From Clostridia bacterium (GTDB lineage Bacteria > Bacillota > Clostridia > Oscillospirales > CAG-272), in contig JAFYBN010000111.1 of NCBI GenBank assembly GCA_017540175.1, positions 1 to 49,734 of the forward strand: DNA of 49,734 nucleotides, given 5' to 3'. Shown here piece after piece: positions 10,010 through 49,734 of the stretch (position 1 is the first letter of the stretch; every line of letters begins with the position of its first letter). Under the pieces are notes generated by a model. It did not search any database. It was not told the origin of the DNA and saw only the letters and a list, made by a program, of their open reading frames with translations. Made by a program: the position numbers and the translations under genes.

Positions 10010-11037
10010 TGGATAAGCAAGAAAAAAACCGCGGCGCGTCGAAGACGATGCCGGAGCTCTTAAAGGTTGCGCCGTCCCCGCATATCAAGGGCGCGGACAC
10101 AACCTCCGCTCTGATGCTCGACGTGCTGATCGCGCTTACGCCCGCGCTTGTCTGGGGCGTCTTCACCTTCGGGATCCGGGCCCTGCTCGTCACCGGCGTC
10201 TCAATCGCCGCGTGCGTCGTTTGGGAGATTCTCGCCGAGCTTCTGATGCACCGCCGCGTGACCGTGAGTGATCTCTCCGCCGCCGTGACGGGACTCCTGC
10301 TCGCGTTCAACCTCCCCGTGACGATCCCGCTGTGGATGCCCGTTGTCGGCGCGTTTTTTGCGATCGTGATCGTCAAGCAGCTCTTCGGCGGCATCGGGAA
10401 GAATTTCGTCAATCCGGCCCTTGCGGCGCGCGTCTTTCTCTTCTCGTGGGCGTCCGAAATGGGCACCTTCCCGGCGGCGGGTGAAAAGATTTCCTCGCTT
10501 GCCGTCACGCTGAGCGAGACGGACGCGGTCGCGGCCGCCACACCGCTCGCGAGCCTGAAAGCGGGCTCCCTGCCGGATGAAAATCTCTTCGCCATGATCG
10601 TCGGGAACATGTCCGGCACCATCGGCGAGGTCAGCGCGCTCCTGCTCATCGCTGGAGGCGTGTACCTGCTTCTGCGCCGCGTGATCACCTGGCACATTCC
10701 CGTCGCGTACATCGGAACGGTTGCGGCTCTGACCCTCGTGTTCCCGCGCGCACCGGGCCCCCATCTCAACTTTATGCTGTATGAGATTTTCGCGGGAGGA
10801 CTGATCCTCGGCTCCGTCTTCATGGCGACGGACTACGCGACCGCTCCCGTTACGCCCGGCGGCAAGCTGCTGTACGGGATCGGCTGCGGCGGTATCACGG
10901 TGCTGATCCGCTATTTCGGCAGCTATCCGGAAGGCGTGTCCTTCTCCATTTTGATCATGAATATGCTCGTGTGGTACCTTGACAGGGCGACCATGCCGCG
11001 TCCCTTCGGAGGAAAACTGAATGGCAAACAAACCTGA
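10006..11037 (+). CDS. rnfD: Rnf complex subunit RnfD (operon 1)
   Basis: A 343-residue polytopic membrane subunit. RnfD carries a covalently bound FMN on a Thr; here the acceptor motif is DAVAAATPL near residue 175. Other family landmarks are FGGIGKNFVNPALAARVFL and FMATDYATAPVTPGG. It starts at ATG 10006 overlapping the rnfC stop and its end overlaps the start of rnfG by 17 bases, so the genes are translationally coupled. The first 25 residues are a charged cytoplasmic lead. Confidence 0.93.
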   Translation: MMDKQEKNRGASKTMPELLKVAPSPHIKGADTTSALMLDVLIALTPALVWGVFTFGIRALLVTGVSIAACVVWEILAELLMHRRVTVSDLSAAVTGLLLAFNLPVTIPLWMPVVGAFFAIVIVKQLFGGIGKNFVNPALAARVFLFSWASEMGTFPAAGEKISSLAVTLSETDAVAAATPLASLKAGSLPDENLFAMIVGNMSGTIGEVSALLLIAGGVYLLLRRVITWHIPVAYIGTVAALTLVFPRAPGPHLNFMLYEIFAGGLILGSVFMATDYATAPVTPGGKLLYGIGCGGITVLIRYFGSYPEGVSFSILIMNMLVWYLDRATMPRPFGGKLNGKQT

Positions 11038-13168
11038 ACAAAACCGAGATCTCTTCTCACCGGAGGACGGCGACGAGCTTCTTCAGGAGATCAGAAAAAC
11101 CTCGGACATGAAAAAAGAACCCCGGGAGCCCGAGCCCGAAAAGAAAACGGCTCCGAAGGGGTCTGACGATTTGCTCGCGAAAATGTTCGAGGAGGAGACC
11201 GCCCGCCAGAATCCCGTCGATCTGACGCAGGTTTTCAACGAACCCGTTGAAGAAGAACCGGAGCGCCGCCCCTTCGGATGGCTGTCCGGCATTCTCAAAA
11301 ACGAAAACGATAATTCCGCAGCACGGCGTGAACGGGAGCAGGAGGAGCACGCGAAGCACAAGTCCTCCTACGAAAGCATTCCGGCAAAACCCGCGGAAGA
11401 AAAGACGTTTCACAAGGAAAACTCCGCGGCGCCGAAGGATGAACCCGCGGCTCGGAAGGACAAGCCGGACGCCCAGACGAATCGGCTTGCTGAACCGAAG
11501 CCGGCAAACGGACAGAAGAATATAACGGACGGCTCCGAACGAGCCGGGACGAAGGACAGGACCGAAGATACGGCGCAGATCGCGGAGGAAAAGGATCAGA
11601 CTCCGACGCCTCCCGAGACCGCGCCCGGAGCGGAACAGTCCGAAGCCGCTGCGGCGGCGGGTGTCTTGTCCGCGTTTGATCTTTCGGAAGCGGACGAAGA
11701 CGTGCCGTCCTTCGACGTACTTTTTGACGACGAAAGGACGGAGGAGGCAGCCCCTCAAGCCGAGAAGAAAGGCAAAAGAACCACGCTGATCCGCACCGCG
11801 GCGATCCTGACGGCGATCTGCGCGGGTGTCGCGCTCCTGCTCGCTGTCATCAACGGTACGACGAAGGACAGGATCGCGCAGAATCTGGACGCGGAAAAAC
11901 GTGCCGCGATCCTTCAGGTCTTCCCGGACGGCGAAGACATTAAGCCCTATACCGCGGACAGCGGCGAGGAAGTCTATCTTGTCACGCGCGGCGGAGAACT
12001 GATCGGCTGCTGTGTGGATACCGTCGGAACCGGCTATATCGGCGACATCGGCATGATGGTCGGGATCGACGCGGCGCACCGCGTGACCGGCATCCGGATC
12101 GTGGACATCAAGGAAACGCCCGGCACGGGCATGAAAGTGCAGTCCGAGATTTTCTTAAAGAGCTTTGCGGGACTGGATGAAGAAGCCGTGATCGGCGAAA
12201 ACGTGGACGGCATCTCCGGTGCGACCCGCTCCTCCGAGGGTGTGGCGCAGGGCGTGAACAAGGCGCTCGCCGTCAAAATCGATTTCGAGAAAGCGGCACG
12301 ATCCCTGAATACGTCCGTCTATGTGCCCGAGAAGACCGAACCGGAACCGCCGGAAAGCACGGTCGAACCCGAAAACGGCAACGATCCCATCAACGTAGGC
12401 GAAGCCGGAGAGGTTGACAGCGAACCCGTCGAAACGGAGCCTCACGAGACCGAGCCTCCGGAAACGGAGCCGGTGGAGACCGAACCTCCGGAAACGGAGC
12501 CTCCGGAAACAGAACCGGTTGAGACAGAGCCTGCGGAAACGGAGCCTCCGGAAACCGAACTTCAGGAGACTGAGCCTCCGGAGACCGAACCTCCGGCAGT
12601 GACGCCTCCGGTCGAGACGCCTCCGGTCGAGACACCGCCCGTAGAGACGCCTCCGGTTGAAACGCCGCCAGTCGAGACACCGCCGGTTGAAACACCGCCG
12701 GTAGAGACGCCTCCGGTCGAGACACCGCCCGTAGAGACGCCTCCGGTTGAAACGCCGCCAGTCGAGACACCGCCGGTTGAAACGCCTCCGGTAGAGACGC
12801 CTCCGGTTGAAACGCCTCCGGTTGAAACGCCGCCAGTCGAGACACCGCCGGTTGAAACGCCTCCGGTAGAGACGCCGCCGGTCGAGACGCCTCCGGTTGA
12901 AACGCCTCCGGTAGAGACACCGCCGGTTGAAACGCCTCCGGTCGAGACGCCGCCGGTTGAAACGCCTCCGGTCGAGACGCCGCCGGTTGACGAACAGCCT
13001 CCGGAAACCGAACCAGAGGATACGGATCCCACGGTCGAAGTCGTAGTTGATATCGACATTACGCCCGAGGATGAAGAAACGCCGCCTCCGGAGATCGAAC
13101 CGGAACCCGAAACCGAACCCGAAACGGAGAAACCTCCGACCGGTCTCATCATCAGACCCGGCCGGTAA
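11021..13168 (+). CDS. rnfG: Rnf subunit RnfG with giant N- and C-terminal extensions (operon 1)
   Basis: RnfG is a one-span membrane protein with an extracytoplasmic FMN-binding domain; typical members have about 200 residues, this one 715. Residues 1-245 form a highly charged, Lys/Glu/Pro-rich cytoplasmic arm. A single membrane span follows (TLIRTAAILTAICAGVALLLAVI, about 247-270), then the FMN_bind domain with KETPGTGMK and the flavinylation motif SGATRSS near residue 400. From about 435 a Thr/Glu/Pro repeat tail begins, ending in 25 exact PPVET units plus one variant and a short acidic end. By topology the tail lies outside the membrane. GGAGGA precedes the ATG. The RnfG core is secure; the purpose of the arms is unknown. 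Confidence 0.9.
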   Translation: MANKPEQNRDLFSPEDGDELLQEIRKTSDMKKEPREPEPEKKTAPKGSDDLLAKMFEEETARQNPVDLTQVFNEPVEEEPERRPFGWLSGILKNENDNSAARREREQEEHAKHKSSYESIPAKPAEEKTFHKENSAAPKDEPAARKDKPDAQTNRLAEPKPANGQKNITDGSERAGTKDRTEDTAQIAEEKDQTPTPPETAPGAEQSEAAAAAGVLSAFDLSEADEDVPSFDVLFDDERTEEAAPQAEKKGKRTTLIRTAAILTAICAGVALLLAVINGTTKDRIAQNLDAEKRAAILQVFPDGEDIKPYTADSGEEVYLVTRGGELIGCCVDTVGTGYIGDIGMMVGIDAAHRVTGIRIVDIKETPGTGMKVQSEIFLKSFAGLDEEAVIGENVDGISGATRSSEGVAQGVNKALAVKIDFEKAARSLNTSVYVPEKTEPEPPESTVEPENGNDPINVGEAGEVDSEPVETEPHETEPPETEPVETEPPETEPPETEPVETEPAETEPPETELQETEPPETEPPAVTPPVETPPVETPPVETPPVETPPVETPPVETPPVETPPVETPPVETPPVETPPVETPPVETPPVETPPVETPPVETPPVETPPVETPPVETPPVETPPVETPPVETPPVETPPVETPPVETPPVETPPVDEQPPETEPEDTDPTVEVVVDIDITPEDEETPPPEIEPEPETEPETEKPPTGLIIRPGR
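12421..12600 (+). repeat. Degenerate PPETE/PVETE-coding repeats in rnfG
   Basis: Imperfect units of about 15 bases encode EPPETE, EPVETE and EPAETE, directly before the regular PPVET array. It looks like an older, more diverged part of the same expansion. Confidence 0.8.
12605..12988 (+). repeat. 15-bp tandem repeat array, about 25 units, coding PPVET in rnfG
   Basis: The frame-preserving unit is CCTCCGGTCGAGACG with wobble variants (CCGCCG, GTTGAA, GTAGAG). Higher-order blocks recur, which points to growth by slippage or unequal crossing over. Nearly all changes are silent, so the peptide is kept under selection. Confidence 0.96.
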
Positions 13169-13182
13169 AAGAGGGAGTGCGC

Positions 13183-14505
13183 ATGAAAAAATCGTATCCC
13201 GATATTTTCAGGGAAGGCATCCTCACGAATAATCCCACCTTCGTCCAGCTGCTTGGCATGTGTCCGACGCTCGCGACCACGACTTCGGTCGTCAACGCGC
13301 TCGGGATGGGCGTGGCCGTTATCGCGGTGCTCTCCTTTTCGAACCTGTTCATATCCCTGCTGAGGAACATCATTCCGAAGCAGATCCGCATCGCTTCCTA
13401 CATCGTGATCATTTCCGGCTTCGTTACGGCGGTCGAGATGATCATCAAGGCTTATTTCCCGGCGATCGACAAGTCCCTCGGTCTGTTCATCCCGCTGATC
13501 GTCGTCAACTGCATCATCCTCGCGCGGGCGGAGGCGTTCGCGTCCAAAAACGGACCGCTTGCCTCCTTCTGCGACGGGATCGCCACGGGGATCGGCTTCA
13601 TGCTCGCCCTGCTTGCCATCGCGTTCGTGCGTGAGCTTCTCGGAAGCGGGATGCTCTTCTCCGCGGCGGACGGATCCGGCGGCGTGCGCATCTTCGGCGA
13701 ATGGTTCAAGCCCGCGTCGATCTTCCTGATGCCGTCCGGCGCGTTCCTCACGCTCGGGTGCCTGATTGCCCTGACGCAGAAGATCCGTTCGGGCGCGGAC
13801 GAGCGCGCGCGCAGAAGAAAAGCGGAAATCGACGTGATCGACAGCGGGTATCACGAGACCCTGATGCGCGACCCGGACAGCGGAAGAATCGTGCGCCGCT
13901 CACTTGTGAAGAAAGCCGAAGAGAACGCGGTACCCGTGCCCGCGGACGAGGAGGATTTCCTGCCCGAGCCCGCATCCGCTGAGGAAACAAAAGAACCACA
14001 GTCCGGCTCGGATCGCAAGACCCCAAGCGGCGTGCCGGAGACGAACGAGGCGCAGAACGCCTCCTCGGACGGCGAAGCGGCGGCTGTGACATCCGATGAA
14101 GCAGAAACCTCTCCGACGGAGACGGAAACCGCCCCGGCACAAGCCGGCGAGGAGGAAGAGCTGCTGTCGGAAGAGATTCTCCCGACGGACACGGAGAAAA
14201 AGTCGAAGAAGAAAGCGGCGAAAGAGAAGAAGTCAAAGAAGAAAGCCGCAAAGGCGAAGCAGGCTGCGGAGAGTGAAACGGCAAATGCCGTTTTGCCGGA
14301 CGAACCCGACGGGGAAGCGCTTGTACCCGACGAGGATATCCCCGATCTGTTTCAGATCCTCGAAGAAGCGGCGGACGACGTTCTGCCTCCGGAATCCGAC
14401 GTACAGGAGGACGGCGCAAAAGAGCGTGAGCCCGGCACGGAGAACTCCGCCCCCGCAGAGCAGGGCGCGACGGACGGCGAAGCGGAAGGGGAGGCTGAGA
14501 AATGA
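13183..14505 (+). CDS. rnfE: Rnf complex subunit RnfE with long charged tail (operon 1)
   Basis: Membrane subunit of Rnf. The first 200 or so residues are a normal RnfE (NNPTFVQLLGMCPTLATTTSVVNALGMG, IPLIVVNCIILARAEAFAS) with several membrane spans and the membrane-embedded cysteine shared by RnfA/RnfE. A tail of about 230 residues follows, rich in Glu, Ala, Ser and Lys, with a Lys block (KKSKKKAAKEKKSKKKAAK). RnfE normally ends soon after the last span. The ATG at 13183 has GAGGGAG five bases upstream; a GTG two codons earlier is less likely. The stop overlaps the rnfA start (ATGA). Confidence 0.92.
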   Translation: MKKSYPDIFREGILTNNPTFVQLLGMCPTLATTTSVVNALGMGVAVIAVLSFSNLFISLLRNIIPKQIRIASYIVIISGFVTAVEMIIKAYFPAIDKSLGLFIPLIVVNCIILARAEAFASKNGPLASFCDGIATGIGFMLALLAIAFVRELLGSGMLFSAADGSGGVRIFGEWFKPASIFLMPSGAFLTLGCLIALTQKIRSGADERARRRKAEIDVIDSGYHETLMRDPDSGRIVRRSLVKKAEENAVPVPADEEDFLPEPASAEETKEPQSGSDRKTPSGVPETNEAQNASSDGEAAAVTSDEAETSPTETETAPAQAGEEEELLSEEILPTDTEKKSKKKAAKEKKSKKKAAKAKQAAESETANAVLPDEPDGEALVPDEDIPDLFQILEEAADDVLPPESDVQEDGAKEREPGTENSAPAEQGATDGEAEGEAEK

Positions 14506-15080
14506 ACCATATCTTCATGATCATGTTCGCGGCGATTTTGACGCAGAACTTCATCTTCTCCCGCTTCTACGGCTGCTGTCCCTTCCTCGGCGTGTCCGAC
14601 AAGCCCTCCACCGCGCTCGGTATGGGGATGGCGGTGACGTTCGTCATGACGATCTCATCCGCGGCGACGTGGGCGGTCTACCGTTTCCTGCTTGAGCCGT
14701 ACGGACTCGAATACCTCAAGACGATCGCGTTCATCCTTGTGATCGCGACGCTCGTGCAGTTCATCGAAATGTTCCTGCGCCGCTTCGTTCACGCGCTCTA
14801 TTCCGCGCTCGGGATCTATCTCCCGCTCATCACCACGAACTGCGCGGTGCTCGGCGCGGCGCTCGTCAACATCGAAGAAGGCTACGATTTCATCGAAAGC
14901 GTCGTGTTCGGCTTTTCCGCCGCGCTCGGCTTCACGCTCGCCATCTGCATTTTCGCGGGCGTGCGGGAGCGGATCAGATTCGCCGAACCGCCGAAATCCT
15001 TCCGCGGCTTCCCGCTGCTTCTGATCGCCGCGGGTCTTGCCGCCATGGCGTTCTCCGGCTTTTCCGGCATGAAGTTCTGA
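14502..15080 (+). CDS. rnfA: Rnf complex subunit RnfA (operon 1)
   Basis: A 192-residue polytopic membrane subunit of normal length. RnfA and RnfE form the inverted membrane pair that holds an iron-sulfur cluster and carries electrons through the membrane. Landmarks: QNFIFSRFYGCCPFLGVSDK near the N-terminus and IYLPLITTNCAVLGAAL near residue 105. Its ATG overlaps the rnfE stop. Confidence 0.94.
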   Translation: MNHIFMIMFAAILTQNFIFSRFYGCCPFLGVSDKPSTALGMGMAVTFVMTISSAATWAVYRFLLEPYGLEYLKTIAFILVIATLVQFIEMFLRRFVHALYSALGIYLPLITTNCAVLGAALVNIEEGYDFIESVVFGFSAALGFTLAICIFAGVRERIRFAEPPKSFRGFPLLLIAAGLAAMAFSGFSGMKF

Positions 15081-15092
15081 GGGGAGGACGAT

Positions 15093-15938
15093 ATGAACAG
15101 TATCATGATCCCGGTCGCGGTATTCCTCGGGCTCGGCGTTTTGACGGGCGTTCTGCTCGCGGTCGCCGCGCGCGCGTTTACCGTTCCGAAGAATGAGACC
15201 GCCGAAAAAATCACGGAATGCCTCCCCGGCGCCAACTGCGGCGGATGCGGCTATTCCGGCTGCGCGGCGCTCGCGGACGCGATCGCGGGAGGGGAAGCCC
15301 GGGTCAGCGCGTGCACCGTGGGAGGCCCCGAGGTCGCCGCGAAGATCGCCGCCATCATGGGCGTCGAGGCACAGCCCGCCGTCCGGATGCGCGCGCAGGT
15401 CATGTGCTCCGGCACACAGGAATACGCGCGCAAGAAGTACGTCTATGACGGCATCCCTGACTGCACGGCTGCCGTGAGACTCGGCGGGGGCGACAAGCTC
15501 TGCATGAACGGGTGCATCGGACTCGGCTCCTGCGCGAAAGCGTGCCCCTTCGGGGCGATTTCCGTCGTCGAGGGCGTAGCGGTCGTTGACTACCGGAAAT
15601 GCCGCGGCTGCGGCGTCTGCGTCAAGGCCTGCCCGAAGCACATCATCCGCCTGATCCCGTACGACGCGAAGCATTGGGTCGGGTGCGTGTCCGTGGACGA
15701 CGGAAAGAACACCCGGCGCGTCTGCGATGTGGGCTGTATTTCCTGCCGCCTCTGCCAGAAGAACTGTCCCTCCGGCGCGATCGCCGTCGACAATTTCGTC
15801 GCGAAGATCGACTACTCGAAGTGCTCCGGGTGTGACACCTGCGTGGAAAAATGTCCGCGCCATATCATCTGGTCAAGCGAGCTGCAGGGACAGCACGGAC
15901 TCGTCATCCGCAGGGAAAAAGCGGAAAAGAAAAGCTGA
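15093..15938 (+). CDS. rnfB: Rnf complex subunit RnfB, polyferredoxin (operon 1)
   Basis: Electron-entry subunit of Rnf, 281 residues. One N-terminal membrane span is followed by the cysteine cluster CLPGANCGGCGYSGC (about residues 45-60), then four ferredoxin-type motifs (CIGLGSCAKACP, CRGCGVCVKACP, CISCRLCQKNCP, CSGCDTCVEKCP). GGGGAGGA lies just before the ATG. It is the last gene of the operon and a strong terminator follows. Confidence 0.94.
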   Translation: MNSIMIPVAVFLGLGVLTGVLLAVAARAFTVPKNETAEKITECLPGANCGGCGYSGCAALADAIAGGEARVSACTVGGPEVAAKIAAIMGVEAQPAVRMRAQVMCSGTQEYARKKYVYDGIPDCTAAVRLGGGDKLCMNGCIGLGSCAKACPFGAISVVEGVAVVDYRKCRGCGVCVKACPKHIIRLIPYDAKHWVGCVSVDDGKNTRRVCDVGCISCRLCQKNCPSGAIAVDNFVAKIDYSKCSGCDTCVEKCPRHIIWSSELQGQHGLVIRREKAEKKS

Positions 15939-39086: not shown

Positions 39087-40439
39087 ATGAAAGTCACGTT
39101 TCGCGGAGGGGTGCACCCGAAGGGGCATAAGGAGCTCAGCCGGGACGCAGCGCTCCGCGAGTTTCTGCCGACGGGGGAGATGGTCTTCCCCCTGTCCCAG
39201 CATATCGGAAAGCCCGCGAAGCCCGTCGTCAAAAAGGGCGATCCCGTCCTCGTCGGGCAGCGGATCGCGGAGGCGGACGGCTTTGTTTCCGCCCATATCG
39301 TCAGCTCCTGCTCCGGCACGGTAAAGGCGGTCGAAAAGCGACTGACCCTGACGGGCGCCGCGCTTGACTGCATCGTGATCGACAACGACGGTCAGTTCAC
39401 GCCGAGTGGGGAATTCGGAGAAAAAAGAGACGTCTCGGGCGTCACGGGCGACGAGATCGTGAACTGTGTCAAGGACGCCGGCATCGTTGGGCTCGGCGGC
39501 GCGGGCTTCCCGACCCACGTCAAGCTCCGCCCGAAGGACCCAGCCGCCATTCGGTATCTTATTCTCAACGGTGCGGAGTGCGAGCCCTACCTGTCCTGCA
39601 ACGATCAGCTCATGCGGGAAAAGGCGGACGCCATCATCGAAGGACTCGAGCTCATGCTGCGGCTGTTCCCGAACGCAGAGGGCGTCGTCGGCATCGAGCG
39701 CAACAAGCCTGAGGCGATCGAGGCGATGAAAAAGGCCGCCGCGGGAAAAGAGAAAATCCGCATCCTCCCGCTCAAAACGAAATACCCGCAGGGCGGCGAG
39801 CGCAGCCTGATCCAGGCGGTCGCGGGAATGGATTTCCCCATCACCTCGCTCCCCGCCGACGTAGGCTGTCTCGTGGAGAACGTCGGCACGGTCTACGCGA
39901 TCGAACGCGCGGTCGTGTTCGGCGAGCCGCTGTATTCCCACGTTTTCACCCTGAGCGGTGAGGCGGTGAAGAACCCGGGCAACTACGTCGTCCGCGACGG
40001 GACCTGCTTTACCGAACTGCTCGAGCACGCGGGCGGTCTTAAAGACGGCGTCACGCTCAAAAAGGCGCTCGCCGGAGGCCCCATGATGGGCATCGCCATG
40101 TCCTCCCTCGACGTGCCGATCCAGAAGCAGAACAACGGTCTGACCCTGCTTGCCTCCGACCCGAACGAGGAGGCGGAGGCGAGAATGACGCCCTGCCTGC
40201 ACTGCGGCCGGTGCACGACGGTCTGCCCGATGGGACTCATGCCCCAGATGATGGCGGACGCGGTCCGGGACGGCAATCTCGAACGCTATGAAAAGAAGCT
40301 CTACGGGCTCGAATGCATCCAGTGCGGCTCCTGCACTTACATCTGCCCGGCGAAGAGGCCGCTCATGCAGACCTTCAAACAGACAAAAGCGGAGATCACG
40401 GCGAAGAAACGCGCCGCCGCGGAAGGAGGAAAGAAATGA
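39087..40439 (+). CDS. rnfC: Rnf complex subunit RnfC (operon 2)
   Basis: NADH-binding subunit, 450 residues. The N-terminus is FRGGVHPKGHKELS; the loop GLGGAGFPTHVKL lies near residue 135 and the two 4Fe-4S motifs near 370-425 (CLHCGRCTTVCP, CIQCGSCTYICP). AAAGGAGA lies about ten bases before the ATG. Its stop overlaps the start of the fused rnfDG gene (ATGA). It is more conventional in sequence than the RnfC of operon 1 (GGVHP rather than GGIHV). Confidence 0.95.
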   Translation: MKVTFRGGVHPKGHKELSRDAALREFLPTGEMVFPLSQHIGKPAKPVVKKGDPVLVGQRIAEADGFVSAHIVSSCSGTVKAVEKRLTLTGAALDCIVIDNDGQFTPSGEFGEKRDVSGVTGDEIVNCVKDAGIVGLGGAGFPTHVKLRPKDPAAIRYLILNGAECEPYLSCNDQLMREKADAIIEGLELMLRLFPNAEGVVGIERNKPEAIEAMKKAAAGKEKIRILPLKTKYPQGGERSLIQAVAGMDFPITSLPADVGCLVENVGTVYAIERAVVFGEPLYSHVFTLSGEAVKNPGNYVVRDGTCFTELLEHAGGLKDGVTLKKALAGGPMMGIAMSSLDVPIQKQNNGLTLLASDPNEEAEARMTPCLHCGRCTTVCPMGLMPQMMADAVRDGNLERYEKKLYGLECIQCGSCTYICPAKRPLMQTFKQTKAEITAKKRAAAEGGKK

Positions 40440-42019
40440 ATTCGGTTCTGAATCTGTCCTCCAGCCCGCACGCACGGGATTCGTGGACGACGCGCTCCGT
40501 CATGCTGCGCGTGCTCCTCGCGCTCGCGCCCGCCTCCGTGCTCGGCGTCATCAACTACGGGCTTTACGCCCTGCTCATCCTCCTGCTCGGCGTGGCGTCC
40601 GCCGTCGCGACCGAGCTGATCTTCGACAAGATCGCGCATAAGCCGAACACCTGGACGGACGGAAGCGCGGCGGTAACGGGTCTGCTTCTCGCGCTGTCCC
40701 TCTCGCCGAGCGTTCCGGTCTACATACCGGTTTTCGGCAGCGTGTTCGCGATCCTCGTGGTCAAATGCTGTTTCGGCGGGCTTGGCAAAAACTTCATCAA
40801 CCCCGCGCTTGCCGGACGGTGCTTCCTGCTCATTTCCTTCGGACGCGTGATGTCCACCTTCAAGGTGGACGCCGTGGCGTCTGCAACCCCAATCGCGGAG
40901 ATGATGAACGGGGGAGAGGTCAACATCACCGAGATGTTCCTCGGCAGCTCCAACGCCGTCATCGGCAGCTCCATCCTCGCGCTCCTCGTCGGAGGACTTG
41001 CGCTGTGGGCGTTCGACATCATCCACGGGCAGATCTGCTTCTCCGTCATCGGCGGTTTCGTTTTGATGATGGCGCTGTTCGGAGGGCAGGGCTTTGACCT
41101 GAAATACCTGCTCGCCCATCTGTGCGGCGGCGGCGTGATCATGGGCGCGTTCTTTATGGCGACCGATTACGTCACCTCCCCCGTCAGCCGCCTCGGACAG
41201 ACGATCTACGGCATCCTGATCGGCGTGCTCGGAGGTCTCTTCCGTCTCTACGGCGGGACCGCGGACGCCTTCAGCTATTCGATCATCATCGGCAACCTCT
41301 TTACCCCGCTGATCGACACGTACTTCGTGCAGAAGCCCTACGCCTACCGCGCGCGCGCCGTCCGCCTGAGATCGGGCGACCGGCGGTCCTTCTGGCAGAG
41401 GATCCCGAAGCCCGTCTATGTGCTGACGGCGATCACGCTCATCGCGGGCGTGGCGCTGAGCGGCGTGTTCTCCATGACGAAGCACACGATTGAGGAACAG
41501 AAGCGCTTGAAGAACGCTCAGTCCTACAGCGTCGTATGTCCCGACGCCGAGGAATTTGAGCCGGACGACGAGGCCGACGACATCATCGAAAACCTCGCCG
41601 GCTCCTGGTGGGGCGAGGACTACGGAAAGTCCGTCATCAAGGAAGCCATGATCGCGAAGGGCGACGACGGTAAGATTGTCGGTTACGTCGTGCGCGTCAG
41701 CACATCCGACGCATACGACGGCTCACTCACGCTCGTGGTCGGCACCGACCCGAACGGCAAGGTCCTCGGCATTTCCTTCACGGAGCTGCACGAGACGCCC
41801 GGCATGGGCATGCGCTGCGGTGAGGCGGAATTCATGGATCAGTTCGCTGGCAAGGAAGTGGATTCCTTCGTTTTGAACAAATCCGCGATGTCCTCCGGCG
41901 CGGCGAATGAGATCGACACTGTATCCGGCGCGTCCACAAGCTCCGGCGCGGTGGTGAAAGCGGTCAACGCCGGTCTGGACTTCGTGAGAAACGTGATGAT
42001 GGGAGGCAGGGAGTCATGA
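40436..42019 (+). CDS. rnfDG: RnfD-RnfG fusion protein (operon 2)
   Basis: One 527-residue open frame joins two Rnf subunits that are normally separate. Residues 1-310 are RnfD: FGGLGKNFINPALAGRCFL, flavinylation motif DAVASATPI near residue 145, and FMATDYVTSPVSRLG near 240. A short basic linker leads to the RnfG span (PVYVLTAITLIAGVALSGVFS, about 328-348) and the outward FMN_bind domain with ETPGMGMR. The G-domain motif reads VSGASTSS, with Ser where the FMN-carrying Thr usually stands. The fusion keeps topology: RnfD ends and RnfG begins on the cytoplasmic side. The gene overlaps its neighbours by four bases at both ends. Confidence 0.92.
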   Translation: MNSVLNLSSSPHARDSWTTRSVMLRVLLALAPASVLGVINYGLYALLILLLGVASAVATELIFDKIAHKPNTWTDGSAAVTGLLLALSLSPSVPVYIPVFGSVFAILVVKCCFGGLGKNFINPALAGRCFLLISFGRVMSTFKVDAVASATPIAEMMNGGEVNITEMFLGSSNAVIGSSILALLVGGLALWAFDIIHGQICFSVIGGFVLMMALFGGQGFDLKYLLAHLCGGGVIMGAFFMATDYVTSPVSRLGQTIYGILIGVLGGLFRLYGGTADAFSYSIIIGNLFTPLIDTYFVQKPYAYRARAVRLRSGDRRSFWQRIPKPVYVLTAITLIAGVALSGVFSMTKHTIEEQKRLKNAQSYSVVCPDAEEFEPDDEADDIIENLAGSWWGEDYGKSVIKEAMIAKGDDGKIVGYVVRVSTSDAYDGSLTLVVGTDPNGKVLGISFTELHETPGMGMRCGEAEFMDQFAGKEVDSFVLNKSAMSSGAANEIDTVSGASTSSGAVVKAVNAGLDFVRNVMMGGRES

Positions 42020-42693
42020 ACAAATACATAGAACGGCTGTACAACGGCATCATCAAAGAAAACCCCGTCCTCATCCTGATGCTCGGCATGTGCCCGACGC
42101 TCGCGGTTTCGACCCGCGCGGCGAACGGCATCGGCATGGGGCTTTCGACCATGGCGGTGCTCATCCTCTCGAACCTTGTGATCTCCCTTCTTCGGAAGGT
42201 GATCCCGAACGAGGTCCGTCTGCCCGCCTACATCGTGATCGTCGCCTCCCTTGTGACGGTGACGGAGCTTCTGATCGAAGCGTACCTTCCCGCGCTGTAT
42301 GACGAGCTCGGTATTTATATCCCGCTCATCGTCGTCAACTGCATCGTGCTCGGCCGCGCGGAAGCGTATGCCAACAAGCATGAGCCCTTCCTCTCCGTCT
42401 TCGACGGCATCGGCATGGGGATCGGCTTCACGCTCGCGCTGACCCTGACGAGCCTTCTGAGAGAAGTGCTCGGCAGCGGCACGGCGTTCGGGTTCCGCGT
42501 CCTGCCCGCCGGCGTCGAGCCGATCGGGATGTTCGTTCAGCCCCCGGGAGCGTTCCTCATCATCGCGGTGATCATCGCCGTGCAGAACGCGATCGGCATC
42601 AAGACCCGTCAGCGCAAGCTCGTTGATAGCGGATGCGACGGCAACTGCGCCCTCTGCTCGAGAGCGTGCGACGGGGAAGGAGGAGCAAAATGA
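42016..42693 (+). CDS. rnfE: Rnf complex subunit RnfE with cysteine-rich tail (operon 2)
   Basis: A 225-residue membrane subunit. Family blocks: NPVLILMLGMCPTLAVSTRAANGIGMG and GIYIPLIVVNCIVLGRAEAYAN. After the last span the C-terminus reads DSGCDGNCALCSRACDGEGG, a Cx3Cx2Cx3C pattern that could bind a metal or an iron-sulfur cluster; the RnfE of operon 1 lacks it. Start and stop both overlap neighbouring genes (ATGA). Confidence 0.93.
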   Translation: MNKYIERLYNGIIKENPVLILMLGMCPTLAVSTRAANGIGMGLSTMAVLILSNLVISLLRKVIPNEVRLPAYIVIVASLVTVTELLIEAYLPALYDELGIYIPLIVVNCIVLGRAEAYANKHEPFLSVFDGIGMGIGFTLALTLTSLLREVLGSGTAFGFRVLPAGVEPIGMFVQPPGAFLIIAVIIAVQNAIGIKTRQRKLVDSGCDGNCALCSRACDGEGGAK

Positions 42694-43268
42694 AGAGTCT
42701 GATCCTCATCATCATCGGCGGGGCGCTGATCAACAACGTCGTGCTGAACCAGTTCCTCGGCATTTGCTCCTTCCTCGGCGTGTACAAGCAGATGAAGGCG
42801 TCCGCGTCCCTCGGCGGCGCGGTGATCTTCGTCATCACGGTCGCCTCCGCGGTGTCGAGCCTGCTTTATACCTATGTTCTCGCGCCGTTCGGCATCGAAT
42901 TCATGAAGACCATCGTCTTCATCCTCGTGATCGCCGCGCTCGTGCAGATCGTGGAGATGTTCCTCAAAAAGAAATCGCCGGGGGTCTACAAGGCGCTCGG
43001 GATCTATCTGCCGCTCATCACGACCAACTGCGCAGTCCTCGGCGTCGCGCTCACCAACGTGCAGAACGACTATAATTTCCTCGAGAGCGTTCTCGCGGGC
43101 TTCGGCACGGCGGTGGGCTTCACCCTCGCCATCGTCCTGCTCGCCAGCATTCGCACGCGCATTCATGAAGAGGATATTCCGGCGCCGCTCAGAGGCGCGC
43201 CCATCGTGCTGATCTCCGCCGCGCTCATGTCCGTCGCGTTCATGGGTTTTGCGGGACTTTCGTTCTGA
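42690..43268 (+). CDS. rnfA: Rnf complex subunit RnfA (operon 2)
   Basis: A 192-residue membrane subunit. Landmarks are NNVVLNQFLGICSFLGVYKQ near the N-terminus and IYLPLITTNCAVLGVAL near residue 105. GGAAGGAGG precedes the ATG, which overlaps the rnfE stop. Same length as the RnfA of operon 1 but clearly diverged, so the operons are not a recent duplication. Confidence 0.95.
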   Translation: MKSLILIIIGGALINNVVLNQFLGICSFLGVYKQMKASASLGGAVIFVITVASAVSSLLYTYVLAPFGIEFMKTIVFILVIAALVQIVEMFLKKKSPGVYKALGIYLPLITTNCAVLGVALTNVQNDYNFLESVLAGFGTAVGFTLAIVLLASIRTRIHEEDIPAPLRGAPIVLISAALMSVAFMGFAGLSF

Positions 43269-43280
43269 GGAGGCGCTGAG

Positions 43281-44108
43281 ATGGACATGAATATCATTCT
43301 GATCACTACCCTCGTGATCGCTGCGGCGGGGCTGGTCGTCGGGATCGGTTTGGTCGCGGCTGGGAAGGCGTTCCGCGTTGAGGTCGACGAAAGGGAAGTC
43401 GCGGTCCGCGAATGCCTGCCCGGAAATAACTGCGGCGCGTGCGGATTCGCCGGATGCGACGCGCTTGCCGCCGCCGTCGCGAAGGGGGAAGCCTCCGTGA
43501 ACGCCTGCCCGGTCGGAGGCGCCGCCGCGGCGGAAAAGATCGCCGCGATCATGGGGACCTCCGCGGACGCCGTGGCGCGCAAAGTCGCGTTCGTGCGCTG
43601 CAAAGGAAGCTGTGATGTCACGAAGCCCCAGGGCAATTATATCGGCATCCGGGACTGCCGCAGCGCCGCGCTCTCCGGTCTGAATCTCCCGTCCTGCGGG
43701 TACGGGTGCCTCGGGCTCGGCTCCTGTGTCACGGTCTGTCCCGAGAACGCCGTTCACGTCGTAGACGGAGTCGCCGTCGTGAACGAAGCGCGGTGCGTCG
43801 GGTGCGGGCTCTGCGTCAAGGCGTGTCCGAAGGGGCTGATCGAGCTCGTCCCCGCCGACGCCTCGGAGAGAGTGCGGTGCTCGAATCGGGATAAAGGCCC
43901 TGCGGTCAAAAAGATCTGCTCGGCGGGATGCATCGGATGCATGCTCTGCGTGAAGCAGTGCGAAGCAGGTGCGATTTCCGTGACGGACAACCTCGCGCAC
44001 ATCGATTACGAAAAATGCACGCGGTGCGGCAAATGCGCCGCGAAGTGCCCGGTGAAGGTCATCACCGCGCCCGCGGCCGAACCCGCCGCAGAGGAAAACC
44101 CCGCCTGA
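43281..44108 (+). CDS. rnfB: Rnf complex subunit RnfB, polyferredoxin (operon 2)
   Basis: A 275-residue electron-entry subunit: one N-terminal span, the cluster CLPGNNCGACGFAGC near residue 50, then four ferredoxin motifs (CLGLGSCVTVCP, CVGCGLCVKACP, CIGCMLCVKQCE, CTRCGKCAAKCP). In the third ferredoxin motif the usual Pro after the last Cys is Glu. AGGAGG precedes ATG 43281; ATG 43287 is an alternative. The small membrane peptide gene follows after 11 bases. Confidence 0.94.
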   Translation: MDMNIILITTLVIAAAGLVVGIGLVAAGKAFRVEVDEREVAVRECLPGNNCGACGFAGCDALAAAVAKGEASVNACPVGGAAAAEKIAAIMGTSADAVARKVAFVRCKGSCDVTKPQGNYIGIRDCRSAALSGLNLPSCGYGCLGLGSCVTVCPENAVHVVDGVAVVNEARCVGCGLCVKACPKGLIELVPADASERVRCSNRDKGPAVKKICSAGCIGCMLCVKQCEAGAISVTDNLAHIDYEKCTRCGKCAAKCPVKVITAPAAEPAAEENPA

Positions 44109-46277: not shown

Positions 46278-46375
46278 TGGGCGTGAGACAAAGCGGATCT
46301 GCTCCGGACGGCAAAACCTCGCGGGACGGTCGGCGGCGTCTCGCGAAATCAAAAGAATCCGAATGGAGAAGAATC

Positions 46376-46648
46376 ATGGCTAACAAGACCACGAATAAGA
46401 TCGTTGTTCCCGAAGCGAAGACCGCTATGGAACAGTTCAAGCAGCAGGCCGCCTCCGAAGTGGGCGTCAACCTCTCGAAGAGCTACAACGGCGACCTCAC
46501 CTCCCGCGAAGCCGGTTCCGTCGGCGGACAGATGGTCAAGAACATGACGACCGTACGAAGCACGAAAAATTGGGTTTTTGAAAGGGAAAACCGGGTTGTC
46601 GACGGGCATAAGACAACGGTGAGGTACATAGCTGGGGTTGCGGTTTGA
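46376..46648 (+). CDS. Alpha/beta-type small acid-soluble spore protein with replaced C-terminus
   Basis: The first 57 or so residues are a textbook alpha/beta SASP: VVPEAKTAMEQFKQQAASEVGV, then NGDLTSREAGSVGGQMVKNM. These proteins coat and protect DNA in spores and carry the GPR protease site in the EVGV region. Family members end a few residues after this point; here the frame runs on into a 33-residue foreign tail (STKNWVFERENR...IAGVAV) giving 90 residues in all. The same tail peptide is encoded again at 48635. GGAGAAG precedes ATG 46376. It may still work as a SASP, or may be a disabled copy. Confidence 0.85.
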   Translation: MANKTTNKIVVPEAKTAMEQFKQQAASEVGVNLSKSYNGDLTSREAGSVGGQMVKNMTTVRSTKNWVFERENRVVDGHKTTVRYIAGVAV

Positions 46649-46656
46649 GGGGGATC
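46538..46656 (+). repeat. Mobile tail repeat, copy A (fused to the SASP gene)
   Basis: The segment from AAGAAC through the stop codon to GAGGGGGATC aligns with copy B at 48608-48730. The part from 46561 is best conserved. Most differences between A and B are at third codon positions, so the encoded peptide was under selection before the copies separated. The conserved GAGGGGG after the stop is a ribosome site for whatever gene follows. Confidence 0.75.
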
Positions 46657-46669
46657 CACTCCAAAAACA

Positions 46670-46792
46670 ATGATAGATTACGCGGCGAAAAGATATCTCC
46701 TGTGCCGAAATGATGCGTTCGTCGACTCGGAAAGAATTACCGCCGACATTTTCCGTTCTTTGGAGCACATGATCGAAATCAGTCGGACATAG
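46670..46792 (+). CDS. Possible 40-codon gene fragment
   Basis: ATG 46670 opens 40 codons (MIDYAAKRYLLCRNDAFVDS...) ending at TAG. The composition looks protein-like, but the ribosome site GAGGGGG is about 15 bases away and no family is recognised. It may be a remnant left by the rearrangement. Confidence 0.3.
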   Translation: MIDYAAKRYLLCRNDAFVDSERITADIFRSLEHMIEISRT

Positions 46793-46830
46793 TGTTTACA
46801 AACCTTTATAAACTAATTTGATCAAAACAC

Positions 46831-46859
46831 TTGATTAAAACTGTTTGTTGTGGTAGAAT
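46831..46859 (+). promoter_or_regulatory. Promoter of the ATPase-TOPRIM cassette, with upstream palindrome
   Basis: TTGATT (46831-46836), 17-bp spacer, TAGAAT (46854-46859). Directly upstream is the palindrome TTTGATCAAA (46817-46826), placed where a regulator could bind. The AT content here is much higher than in the rest of the window. Confidence 0.75.
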
Positions 46860-46887
46860 AATCGCAGTAAGAACGGAGGTGAGCAAG

Positions 46888-48006
46888 ATGAAACTGCTCC
46901 GCGTGAAAGCCAGCCACTTCAAGAACTGCTGTGATGACTTTACGATAGACCTGACATCGAAGTCAAAGAAGACGGCGGAAGATTTAGAGTACGAGCTTCA
47001 GGAAATTGCTCCCAACCTGCATGTGTTCAGCACCGCTGCCTTTATCGGGAAGAATGCGTCAGGCAAAACGACCGCCGTTGAATTGCTCGACTGCGCCTAT
47101 TCCATACTCGGGGATTTCCGTGTGGAGGACAAGCACTACAGCTGCGATGGCATAAAGCTTGAAATCACATTCTTCCATGAGGGATTTATTTATCTCTATG
47201 AAACCGTGCTGTCTTCCGGAAAGACTATGGCAAACCAGGCTTGCTTCCGGAACGAACGGATCTTCCGCAAGGAATACTTCAAGACCAATGCAAAGGAGAT
47301 TTTTGACCGCGACGGTTTTGAGGAACTGACAGATCTGGGAGACCTGCCGGAGGACACTTCCAACGTTTTCTTTATCCTGAAAAAGAAAAAGACCCGGGCT
47401 GTCTTCTTTGACAGCTACAGCGGCGGCGCGGACACCTATCAGTTGTTGTTCCGGGCTCTGAAAAATTATGATATCGGCGAAGATGTGCTCGCAAAGGTCA
47501 TCCGTATTTTTGATGAAACGATCAAGGAGCTGCACCGGATCGACGACCACAACTACCGTGTGGTGACCGAAAACGGAGAGCGGATCATGTCGGATACACA
47601 GCTCATCTATTTTCTTTCCAGTGGAACTACCAAGGGTATCCTCCTCTATACCCTGATGGCGGCATCCCTGAAGGAGGGTTTTGATCTGCTGATCGACGAA
47701 GTGGAGAACCATTTCCACAAAACTCTGGTGGAAAACATGATAAGCCTCTATAAAGACAAGAGCGTCAACCGCAGCAATGCTTCCTTGATTTTTACGACGC
47801 ATTACTGTGAGGTTCTGGATCAGATGGGGAGACAGGATAATATCTGGATTTGTAATGCAAACAGCCGCATCCACCTGACCAATATGTACGAGGACTATCG
47901 TATCCGCCCCGTACTGCTCAAGAGCAAGCAGTATTACAGCAATGCCTTCCGGACTGCCGTCAACTATGAGGACCTCATGGCGCTGAAGAAGGTGTTGAAA
48001 AAATGA
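46888..48006 (+). CDS. ABC/AAA-type ATPase of the OLD/PARIS-like kind
   Basis: A 372-residue SMC/ABC-like ATPase. The N-terminal strand LLRVKASHFKN leads to Walker A IGKNASGKTT near residue 54; a signature-like LSSGTTKG near 248, Walker B FDLLIDEVENHF near 268 and the switch His IFTTHY near 305 complete the ABC-type site. No transporter parts are present. Stand-alone ATPases of this type pair with nucleases or toxins in phage defence (OLD, AbiL, PARIS, Septu). GGAGGTGA precedes ATG 46888. The stop overlaps the next gene (ATGA), a strong sign that both products act together. GC content is clearly lower than in neighbours, which suggests transfer. Confidence 0.82.
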   Translation: MKLLRVKASHFKNCCDDFTIDLTSKSKKTAEDLEYELQEIAPNLHVFSTAAFIGKNASGKTTAVELLDCAYSILGDFRVEDKHYSCDGIKLEITFFHEGFIYLYETVLSSGKTMANQACFRNERIFRKEYFKTNAKEIFDRDGFEELTDLGDLPEDTSNVFFILKKKKTRAVFFDSYSGGADTYQLLFRALKNYDIGEDVLAKVIRIFDETIKELHRIDDHNYRVVTENGERIMSDTQLIYFLSSGTTKGILLYTLMAASLKEGFDLLIDEVENHFHKTLVENMISLYKDKSVNRSNASLIFTTHYCEVLDQMGRQDNIWICNANSRIHLTNMYEDYRIRPVLLKSKQYYSNAFRTAVNYEDLMALKKVLKK

Positions 48007-48539
48007 AGCGGCTGATCATGTGCGAAGGTCCCAATGAGCTGACGCTCATCAACATCCTGCTGGAAAACGATGCTCTGGTTTTCTCTGAGGATGACCTGCT
48101 TGGCTTGACTGCTTACCACGCAAGGCAAATCAAAACAAATGCCCAGGTACGGTTGGCATTGAACCTGTATGACGGAAACGACGTCACGGTGATGCGCGTC
48201 GGAGACAAGCAGACAGACCGATTACTCATCCCGGCGGATTTCAAAGACAAGATCTATGAGGTTGAGAAGTACTGCACTCTTCCGGAACTGGAAATGCTGC
48301 TGCTTATCTCCGAAGACCTTGTGAAGGAATACGAGAAGGTCAAATCAACAGTCAGGCCAAAAGTCTTTGCCAAAGAACACATCCGGTGCAATCGGAGACG
48401 TTACGACAACAGCTCCCGGTTTTACCGGGACTATTACGGAAATGAGTGCAGGAAGCTCATCAACGCCATCCGGGAGTACAAACGGATCAGGGGCTCCCAT
48501 GAAAAGGATGAGCTATATCTTGCGGATATTCTCAAATAA
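48003..48539 (+). CDS. Small TOPRIM-like partner of the ATPase
   Basis: A 178-residue protein. It opens with LIMCEGPNELTLINILLE, which looks like TOPRIM motif 1 (hydrophobic strand, CEG, then an acidic residue). A strand and acidic cluster follow (VTVMRVGDKQTDRL near 60-75), a possible equivalent of the DxD motif, then YCTLPELEMLLLISEDLVKEYEK and a very basic C-terminal half (HIRCNRRRYDNSSRFYRDYYG). It is not the DUF4435 of PARIS AriB nor an obvious RloB. A nuclease role triggered through the ATPase is inference from the motif and the coupled operon. No terminator is seen after it. Confidence 0.6.
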   Translation: MKRLIMCEGPNELTLINILLENDALVFSEDDLLGLTAYHARQIKTNAQVRLALNLYDGNDVTVMRVGDKQTDRLLIPADFKDKIYEVEKYCTLPELEMLLLISEDLVKEYEKVKSTVRPKVFAKEHIRCNRRRYDNSSRFYRDYYGNECRKLINAIREYKRIRGSHEKDELYLADILK

Positions 48540-48607
48540 GCCGAAATCAAGAATTTGTGACTATGTTTCTTGAACAGGATCGGATATCGTATGGTTCCCC
48601 TTTCTTG

Positions 48608-48730
48608 AAGAACGTGTTAACTAACCGTCCGACTCACGAAAAAAGCCGTCTTCGAGCGGGAAAACCGCATCGTAGAGGGGCATAAGCAAACGGTCAGATA
48701 CATAGCTGGTCTTGCGATTTGAGGGGGATC
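48608..48730 (+). repeat. Mobile tail repeat, copy B (right of the cassette)
   Basis: Homologous to 46538-46656. From 48635 one frame reads TKKAVFERENRIVEGHKQTV then RYIAGLAI and a stop, against STKNWVFERENRVVDGHK in copy A. No start codon in that frame is found upstream, so this is a gene 3' end without its body. The GAGGGGGATC after the stop serves as ribosome site for the frame at 48735. Confidence 0.75.
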
Positions 48731-48734
48731 TTAC

Positions 48735-48972
48735 ATGAAAAAAGAGTGGGAAATGGGCTTACAACATGGACACCTGCTGTGTCGAGCTAAAGCAGGCCGA
48801 CGGGACAGTAATCGCCATCGATACCCTCGCCGTGGAACGGGAATTCGTGGAGACCTGGCTCGATCGCCGGGAGCTGGATTATCTGATCTACAATGATCCG
48901 GCTGCTTATGCGGAGCTGGTGCTGAACGGCGATGTGAAGGCGTATCTGGATACAGTCAGGCAGGGACAATAA
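48735..48972 (+). pseudogene. DUF6061-like gene, apparently frameshifted near its start
   Basis: An ATG at 48735 with a good GAGGGGG site opens MKKEWEMGLQ..., but this frame soon goes astray. From 48766 a second frame reads MDTCCVELKQADGTVIAIDT through WLDRRELDYLIYNDPAAYAELVLNG to TAA at 48972. From memory, DUF6061 proteins of clostridial mobile elements read like MKxxWENGAYNMDT through this joint, which here needs two extra bases near 48755. Either a small deletion broke the gene or only the 68-codon part from 48766 is made. Confidence 0.6.
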
Positions 48973-48988
48973 TTCGGGTTCATGGAAA

Positions 48989-49041
48989 GGAGGTGGCAAA
49001 ACACCACCTCCATGAAGGGCGTGCGTTCTGTGCACGTCCTT
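48989..49041 (+). terminator. Two hairpins after the DUF6061-like gene, likely terminator
   Basis: GGAGGTGG/CCACCTCC (48989-49011) is followed by an imperfect hairpin AAGGGCGTGC with GTGCACGTCCTT (49014-49041) and then TTTCTCCATTTTT. Confidence 0.55.
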
Positions 49042-49065
49042 TCTCCATTTTTAGAAAAAGGATAC

Positions 49066-49165
49066 GGATTCAATCCTCACCCTTGAAGGAATAGAAAAGC
49101 AAGGGCACAAGTGTTGCTTGTATCCTTGCTCGATGTGAAGGAGCGGAATTCAATTCCCACCCTTG
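49066..49165. repeat. Two copies of a palindromic motif around a nested hairpin
   Basis: GGATTCAATCC followed by (T)CACCCTTG at 49066-49085 recurs as GGAATTCAATTCC followed by CACCCTTG at 49145-49165. Between them GCAAGG...CCTTGC (49099-49129) encloses ACAAG/CTTGT. Spacing between copies is 79 bp. The class is unknown: it could be a recombination site, an operator pair or a folded RNA. Confidence 0.5.
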
Positions 49166-49228
49166 CCTGCCGCACCATCGTTTGAAATGACGGTGGGAAG
49201 TCAGCTGACTGAACGATTCTCTTATCCC

Positions 49229-49564
49229 TCAGCGCAATATCTTCTCCATCGGTTTTCCTTTTGCAAGTTCGTCCACCAGCTTGTCCAGCTGCCGGATCTT
49301 CTTCATCAGCGGGTTCTCGATGGTTTCTACCTGGATTCCGCAAATTATCCCTGTGATCAGCTCCGCCCTCGGGTTGTATGCCGGCGCATTATTGAAGAAC
49401 TCCGCATAGGTCACATCGAGATCTGTCGTCTCCATATCATATCCTGTCAGCCATGCAGTGACTTCATCAACCTCTGCCTTGGTACGGCCTTTCTTCTCCG
49501 CCTTGGCAACCAGCAGCGGATATACTTTTGAGACCTTCATATCAAAAACGGATTGTCTGGGCAT
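49229..49564 (-). CDS. DUF2200 family protein
   Basis: A 111-residue cytoplasmic protein. The whole length fits DUF2200 as I know it: KVYPLLVAKAEKKGRTKAEV, AWLTGYD, TYAEFFNNAPAYNP, ITGIICGIQVE and the end PLMKKIRQLDKLVDELAKGK. The molecular function of the family is unknown. GAGGTGA lies upstream of ATG 49564 and the gene starts 11 bases after the stop of the DUF1801-like gene, so they form an operon. Composition is lower in GC than the main part of the window. Confidence 0.85.
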   Translation of the reverse strand: MPRQSVFDMKVSKVYPLLVAKAEKKGRTKAEVDEVTAWLTGYDMETTDLDVTYAEFFNNAPAYNPRAELITGIICGIQVETIENPLMKKIRQLDKLVDELAKGKPMEKILR

Positions 49565-49575
49565 CGTTCGTCACC

Positions 49576-49734
49576 TCACACATGGTTTCCGGTCTTCCGA
49601 CACCAGTCCGCGATCTCTGCGATCAGATCCAGCGGAAGATCATCGGAATACGGGATCTGGATTGACCCCTTGCTGTATTTGCAGCCCGCCTGATGCAGCT
49701 TTTCCGCAAAATACGTTACCGCTTCCGGGCCGGG
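49576..49734 (-). CDS. DUF1801 (YdhG-like) family protein, C-terminal part only
   Basis: The last 52 codons of a gene whose start lies beyond the window end. The sequence PGPEAVTYFAEKLHQAGCKYSKGSIQIPYSDDLPLD... to the stop is typical of the C-terminal part of DUF1801/YdhG-like proteins (a strand with SKGSIQIP, then PLDLIAEIADW). It is encoded just before the DUF2200 gene in the same direction. YdhG has been linked to iron handling, but the function here is open. Confidence 0.7.
   Translation of the reverse strand, partial: PGPEAVTYFAEKLHQAGCKYSKGSIQIPYSDDLPLDLIAEIADWCRKTGNHV

Follow-up and report, generated by a model that had tools for sequence, protein, structure and literature searches.

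What do the two coupled genes at the end of contig JAFYBN010000111.1 (assembly GCA_017540175.1) do for the genome, or the mobile element, that carries them? The window analysed here, i.e. the whole stretch of 49,734 nt (coordinates on the forward strand), ends in an operon of two genes, A and B, which a sequence-only reading had proposed as a candidate defence module. Its account of the arrangement, two genes overlapping by four bases, is correct:

46888..48006, + strand: gene A, AbiLi/RloA-type ABC (SMC/Rad50/PtuA-like) ATPase, 372 amino acids (aa)
48003..48539, + strand: gene B, candidate TOPRIM-like effector, 178 aa, of an uncurated family
48003..48006, + strand: ATGA overlap of 4 bases, stop of A and start of B (read from the sequence; alike in 54 of the 79 coupled loci described below)

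The evidence set out below suggests that the pair is probably a mobile phage-defence cassette of the abortive-infection (toxin–antitoxin-like) kind, in which A would hold a B nuclease until a phage trigger arrives.

Coupling and co-divergence of A and B

Relatives of B were collected from the GTDB species genomes (182, of which 80 were kept) and from IMG/VR (11), giving 91 loci; the plasmid and phage collections held none. Judged by their labels, most of the records come from Bacillota, and many are metagenome-assembled genomes (MAGs) from rumen or gut; the closest relative (88 %) lies in a MAG with the label Paludibacteraceae, which may reflect a binning error. An A-type ATPase open reading frame (ORF) stands directly before B in 79 of the 81 loci having at least 1 kb upstream, the exceptions being L080 and L082, in which B is fragmentary or shortened. 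A and B are separate ORFs at every locus where both were found, and they have diverged together, with a Mantel r of 0.946 over 42 rows and of 0.787 over the 23 rows of the close clade (0 of 2000 permutations as high in either case).

L004 and L005 (E about 1e-3) were taken as chance matches to B, and the L004 ORF resembles, by eye, a PHP-type phosphoesterase. At L002 (1501-2982) B breaks off near residue 143, and its reading frame runs on into an apparent serine recombinase, which looks like a natural gene fusion or a deletion junction; at L080 (1985-2401) the first 49 residues of B directly adjoin a terminase fragment, through either a deletion or an assembly join.

Gene A is an AbiLi-family ATPase

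Gene A starts at ATG 46888, preceded by GGAGGTGA; the TTG at 46831 given as its start in the ORF list was rejected, this position being the beginning of a -35 box. By its sequence, A is an ABC/SMC-type ATPase of the AbiLi family: it matches the PADLOC AbiLi model PDLC02335 with an E value of 4.8e-36, as do all 42 A proteins compared, and the AriA model with an E value of 1.2e-12. In its GKNASGKT stretch, G54 and N56-T61 are invariant among 42 relatives, and so are D270, E271 and T304-H305. We take these to be Walker A, Walker B and the switch-His position, and the invariance bears out the motifs that the sequence-only reading had picked out.

Gene B is a small protein outside the curated families

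B itself matches nothing convincingly in Pfam, NCBIfam or PADLOC, and the same holds for 68 members of its family in Pfam, PADLOC or PHROGs, in agreement with the idea that the partner belongs to no curated family. The PADLOC check that had been suggested thus succeeded for A and gave nothing convincing for B. What remains are weak PADLOC matches among the 68 members to PDC-M38B (three members, best E 0.0039) and AbiLii (three members, best E 0.013), and scattered weak PHROGs matches to B, with a best E value of 0.0012 among the 25 of 27 families listed.

The N-terminus of B, MKRLIMCEGPNE, is of the CEG type, and the net charge of -8 over residues 1-105 and +9 over residues 106-178 gives the basic C-terminal part that had also been described. 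In the structure check that had been suggested, the predicted structure of B (predicted local distance difference test, pLDDT, 92.7) has the TOPRIM domains of OLD and Gabija among its best matches, and a PARIS chain as the first Foldseek match, yet every score is weak and falls short of demonstrating a common fold. The best profile match of B is likewise the OLD TOPRIM domain. E8 is invariant in 68 of 68 members and lies immediately after strand 2-7, where the glutamate of the first TOPRIM strand is expected; D68 is invariant after strand 61-67, with a second acid (D or E in 67/67) at +4. The canonical DxD after a later strand is present in only two of the 68 members, and DxE in one, so that B falls short of the TOPRIM signature in this respect. 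The invariant acids E8, D68, E95 and E97 would fit a TOPRIM site that mostly lacks the DxD.

At L101 (7956-8774) a distant relative of 272 aa, located behind a 408-aa ATPase, does carry a canonical DxD (RIVDSDSD), and may link the B family to ordinary TOPRIM proteins. TOPRIM-like motifs were also found in a 182-aa protein that stands alone; in a PDB search with it, PH0156 was absent among the matches listed (60 of 76). DUF3226, which we take to be the family of the top VIA match, a link that is unproven, gave four places below the cut-off in 3/199 genomes, three of them coinciding with OLD-TOPRIM matches.

Relationship to known ATPase/TOPRIM systems

The most similar architecture is that of AbiL (AbiLi-AbiLii; RloA-RloB), i.e. 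a two-gene operon with an AbiLi-model ATPase first and a small TOPRIM-like partner second, and in the hhalign output the motif order EG..D..PxxE looks alike by eye. RloB was found in 12/245 genomes of the same order, and in 11 of these 12 loci it is preceded by an ATPase matched by the A profile. B therefore takes the position of RloB in an architecture already known, and related ATPases apparently serve two different small partners, B and RloB.

In contrast to AbiL proper, the B of the window (P0002) does not match AbiLii (PDLC02337), PF13707 (RloB) is not among the 25 families matched by the 68 members at E values up to 1, and the B profile has no match at any of the 12 RloB loci. The exact core of the dyad described below also distinguishes the two: it precedes 39 of 75 A genes and is absent before all nine RloA genes examined, of which one has just 61 bp of upstream sequence. 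Since B fails the RloB and AbiLii models, we do not call the pair AbiL. Nor is homology between B and RloB claimed: the profile comparison scored 20.3, with the A profile at 19.7 and reversed B compared with A at 21.5.

With PARIS (AriA-AriB) the cassette shares an AriA-matching ABC ATPase in a two-gene layout with a small partner, which may be a TOPRIM effector, as AriB is. It differs in that DUF4435 (PF14491) is unmatched in the 68 B proteins at E values up to 1, and the profile score of B against AriB (16.1) lies below that of the A profile used as a negative. PARIS was rejected on this ground, as the sequence-only reading had anticipated in separating the partner from AriB. Septu (PtuA-PtuB) was rejected as well: PtuB of Septu and retrons is described as an HNH nuclease (PMC10440598), and no HNH family occurs among the matches of the 68 B proteins at E values up to 1. 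OLD and Gabija GajA also combine an ABC ATPase with TOPRIM (OLD systems are reviewed in PMC10568477), fused in one protein there and encoded by separate genes here. The TOPRIM_OLD:AAA pairs of NetFlax (D44 and D60 with D29) consist of separate AAA and TOPRIM genes, examined as neutraliser and toxin (PMC10440598); D44 is RloB-like and in this unlike B, and the D60 toxin (S. agalactiae) may belong to the family of B or to another one. Our literature search returned no named system with a B-type partner, a text search being blind to unnamed sequences.

The earlier comparison with AbiL and PARIS, i.e. a related ATPase with a TOPRIM-like partner, is thus well founded for the ATPase and weakly matched by structure for the partner. 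Two stronger statements did not survive. That B is too small, or reduced, is not supported, given the stand-alone 182-aa TOPRIM-like protein and the RloB ORFs of about 205-230 aa in these genomes. A separate class claims too much for a pair whose ATPase is of the AbiLi type in 42/42 proteins and whose partner takes the place of RloB. The pair appears akin to the AbiL/PARIS kind, and its new part is the second gene, outside every curated family found.

The pair as a mobile cassette

Gene calling around 40 of the 91 loci gave 233 flanking genes, among whose proteins the largest similarity group numbered seven, of mixed lengths, and the others at most three. After six of more than 1100 aa had been dropped from the nearest flanking genes, 148 of the remaining 152 were scanned; they included restriction, helicase, recombinase and integrase families among many others, and housekeeping genes also occur beside the pair. 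Single-query searches over all 91 loci, with flanks of up to 8 kb, placed a terminase large subunit near the pair in L006, L014, L092 and L097, with a fragment in L080; serine recombinases in L026, L013, L055, L030 and L094, with weak matches in L080 and L068; and a type I methylase in L017, L037 and L062. The queries and several of the matches were confirmed in Pfam (TerL, Resolvase/Recombinase, HsdM, HsdR). For HsdM, with 82 matches in 147 genomes of the order, chance would put about 0.24 into flanking DNA of this extent (P about 0.002), a rough estimate with sizes entered by hand.

The G+C content of the pair is below that of its surroundings in 23 of 26 loci chosen for their long flanks. 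The pair occurs rarely and in scattered genomes, its neighbours vary, and copies also occur in phage contigs. To judge from this distribution the cassette is mobile and accessory, and is sometimes carried by phages; hotspots of antiviral systems carried by phages have been described (PMC9122126). The survey of neighbourhoods that the sequence-only reading had called for accordingly returned variable neighbours, including terminases, serine recombinases and type I restriction genes, and not the core chromosomal homologues that it had named as a refutation.

A private operator-like dyad over the promoter

46817..46839, + strand: operator-like dyad, 23 bp, TTTGATCAA-aacac-TTGATTAAA, 8/9 pairs; the window form of the family dyad AAAC-N9-GTTT
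46831..46859, + strand: predicted promoter TTGATT-17-TAGAAT, with TG before the -10 box; relatives conserve the region

The single promoter read earlier is probably this sigma-A-like one, weak when taken alone (four such sites against 2.4 in shuffles) and lying in a region conserved among relatives. Its -35 box falls inside the right arm of a dyad that in the family spans 23 bp, e.g. TTTAAACAA-N5-TTGTTTAAA, with CG variants in a distant branch, e.g. TAAAAACGG-N5-CCGTTTTTA. In the window the dyad reads TTTGATCAAAACACTTGATTAAA, without the exact core.

CAA-N5-TTG was found in 31 of 53 loci; 200 rounds of shuffling gave 3.5 on average and 9 at most. This test is not independent, as the dyad was first noticed in the promoter alignments. 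Across 75 usable loci out of 79, which are related and hence not independent of each other, exact AAAC-Nk-GTTT (k 3-17) occurred in 39 at k=9, five at k=10 and 0-2 at any other k; with one mismatch the counts were 53, 30 and 2-18, respectively. The exact core is missing in the other 36, the window among them, and several loci (e.g. L019, L040, L098 and L101) have nothing dyad-like by eye. Over 52 anchored sites (46 distinct; 1000 shuffles), pair 8-16 scored 0.91 against a shuffle maximum of 0.78 and pair 2-22 scored 0.70 against 0.67; these are the only non-anchor pairs to exceed the maximum, which pairs 1-23, 3-21 and 9-15 do not.

The pattern WWWAAACAA-N5-TTGTTTWWW was scanned over nine bacterial genomes and one virus record, picked for a good dyad at the cassette (a variant in L065), which leaves uniqueness as the only result. 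Exactly one site was found in eight of the nine genomes and in the virus record, 38-54 nt before the start of A in each case, and the reversed-pattern control gave 0 in all ten; the L065 genome does not match the pattern. The source genome has no second site within two mismatches of the window dyad. A dyad that occurs once per genome, and moves and changes with the cassette, suggests a regulator inside the cassette. Since neither A nor B matches any DNA-binding domain family, the candidate would be A, B or their complex, which suggests that the cassette regulates itself through the dyad.

Surroundings in the window

46550..46656, + strand: left flanking repeat, forming the tail of the SASP fusion ORF, 79 % identical to the right copy
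48624..48730, + strand: right flanking repeat, 79 % identical to the left copy

The markedly AT-rich composition noted earlier holds for A and B (48.7 % G+C, where 1-46300 has 60.7 %; 1652-bp windows sampled every 50 bp over the first 45.6 kb have a minimum of 55.7 %), and it extends beyond them, to 46300-46887 (49.7 %) and 48540-49734 (50.9 %). Both the related repeats and the disrupted spore-protein gene next door had been recognized correctly. The repeats are 107 bp long, the genome yielding no further copy at E <= 0.001, and the upstream gene is a SASP spore protein retaining Pfam positions 1-51/59, whose ORF (46376-46656) ends in a 26-aa tail encoded by the left repeat that recurs 3' of the cassette. 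The tail peptide, searched in the plasmid collection alone, had one match, of E 6. As the repeats are too diverged for a fresh target-site duplication, an old recombination between two gene ends is likelier.

Downstream lie two genes of unknown-function families, DUF6061 (48766-48972) and DUF2200 (49229-49564). The remaining contig is, with ORFs read by eye, ordinary chromosome; it includes two separate Rnf-type electron-transport operons (8657-15938 and 39087-44108), the first with an RnfG-like ORF (11021-13168) carrying a long PPVETPPVETP repeat.

Proposed mechanism and alternative explanations

If the cassette acts by abortive infection, A would oligomerise, bind B and hold it inactive until a trigger made by the phage acted on A and set B free. 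B would be a small divergent TOPRIM-type metal-dependent nuclease, its target most likely tRNA or other RNA and less likely DNA, and once freed would stop translation or replication ahead of phage release. Transcription would start at the dyad-covered promoter, the dyad most likely serving feedback repression. This release model draws on two analogies: PARIS, whose AriA hexamer is reported to retain AriB, which a phage protein then sets free as a tRNA-cutting dimer (PMC12409363), and the TOPRIM toxins that are neutralised by AAA proteins. In the report on the latter, a defence role of such pairs is only speculated on, and one pair with another toxin gave no hits in a screen against coliphages (PMC10440598). 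It counts against the model that AbiLii of Fusobacterium is described as toxic, yet not neutralised by AbiLi (PMC3985639).

More tentatively, the A-B complex itself might bind the AAAC-N9-GTTT dyad and repress its own promoter, so that a phage trigger or DNA competitor displacing the complex would at once free the effector and raise its expression. We consider this possible, albeit rather doubtful.

It is unlikely that the pair is instead an addiction (toxin–antitoxin) module maintaining mobile elements, with A neutralising B, A-B repressing through the dyad, and defence secondary or absent. A two-gene operon with its own operator-like dyad and copies in phage contigs and beside recombinases would suit such a module, for which the AAA-neutralised TOPRIM toxins set a precedent (PMC10440598). 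Against it, the ATPase is of the type found in PARIS, Septu and AbiL. To our knowledge, ABC ATPases of this kind would be unusual as plain addiction-module antitoxins.

We give little credence to a phage-borne counter-defence or superinfection-exclusion pair working for the prophage: the cassette has a cargo position just upstream of the terminase in four loci, but that terminase is near it in only five of the 91, and the explanation overlaps with defence in effect, since prophage-borne defence also excludes rivals. Just as improbable is a nucleic-acid repair or recombination pair (a Rad50/RecF-RecR-like ATPase plus TOPRIM) for phage or element replication, as A with 372 aa has no room for a long coiled coil and belongs by sequence to the AbiLi family, and the neighbours are unrelated in genomes and phage contigs alike.

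Returning to abortive infection, the cassette adds an uncurated effector family, with 182 GTDB relatives, to the ATPase/TOPRIM defence architecture of gut and rumen Bacillota and their phages. The private operator offers a way to test how sensor-effector pairs stay silent and whether the sensor controls expression. Should the A-B complex indeed bind the dyad, the pair would represent a new ABC-ATPase/TOPRIM immunity class, whose guard, while at rest, would also act as a transcription repressor.
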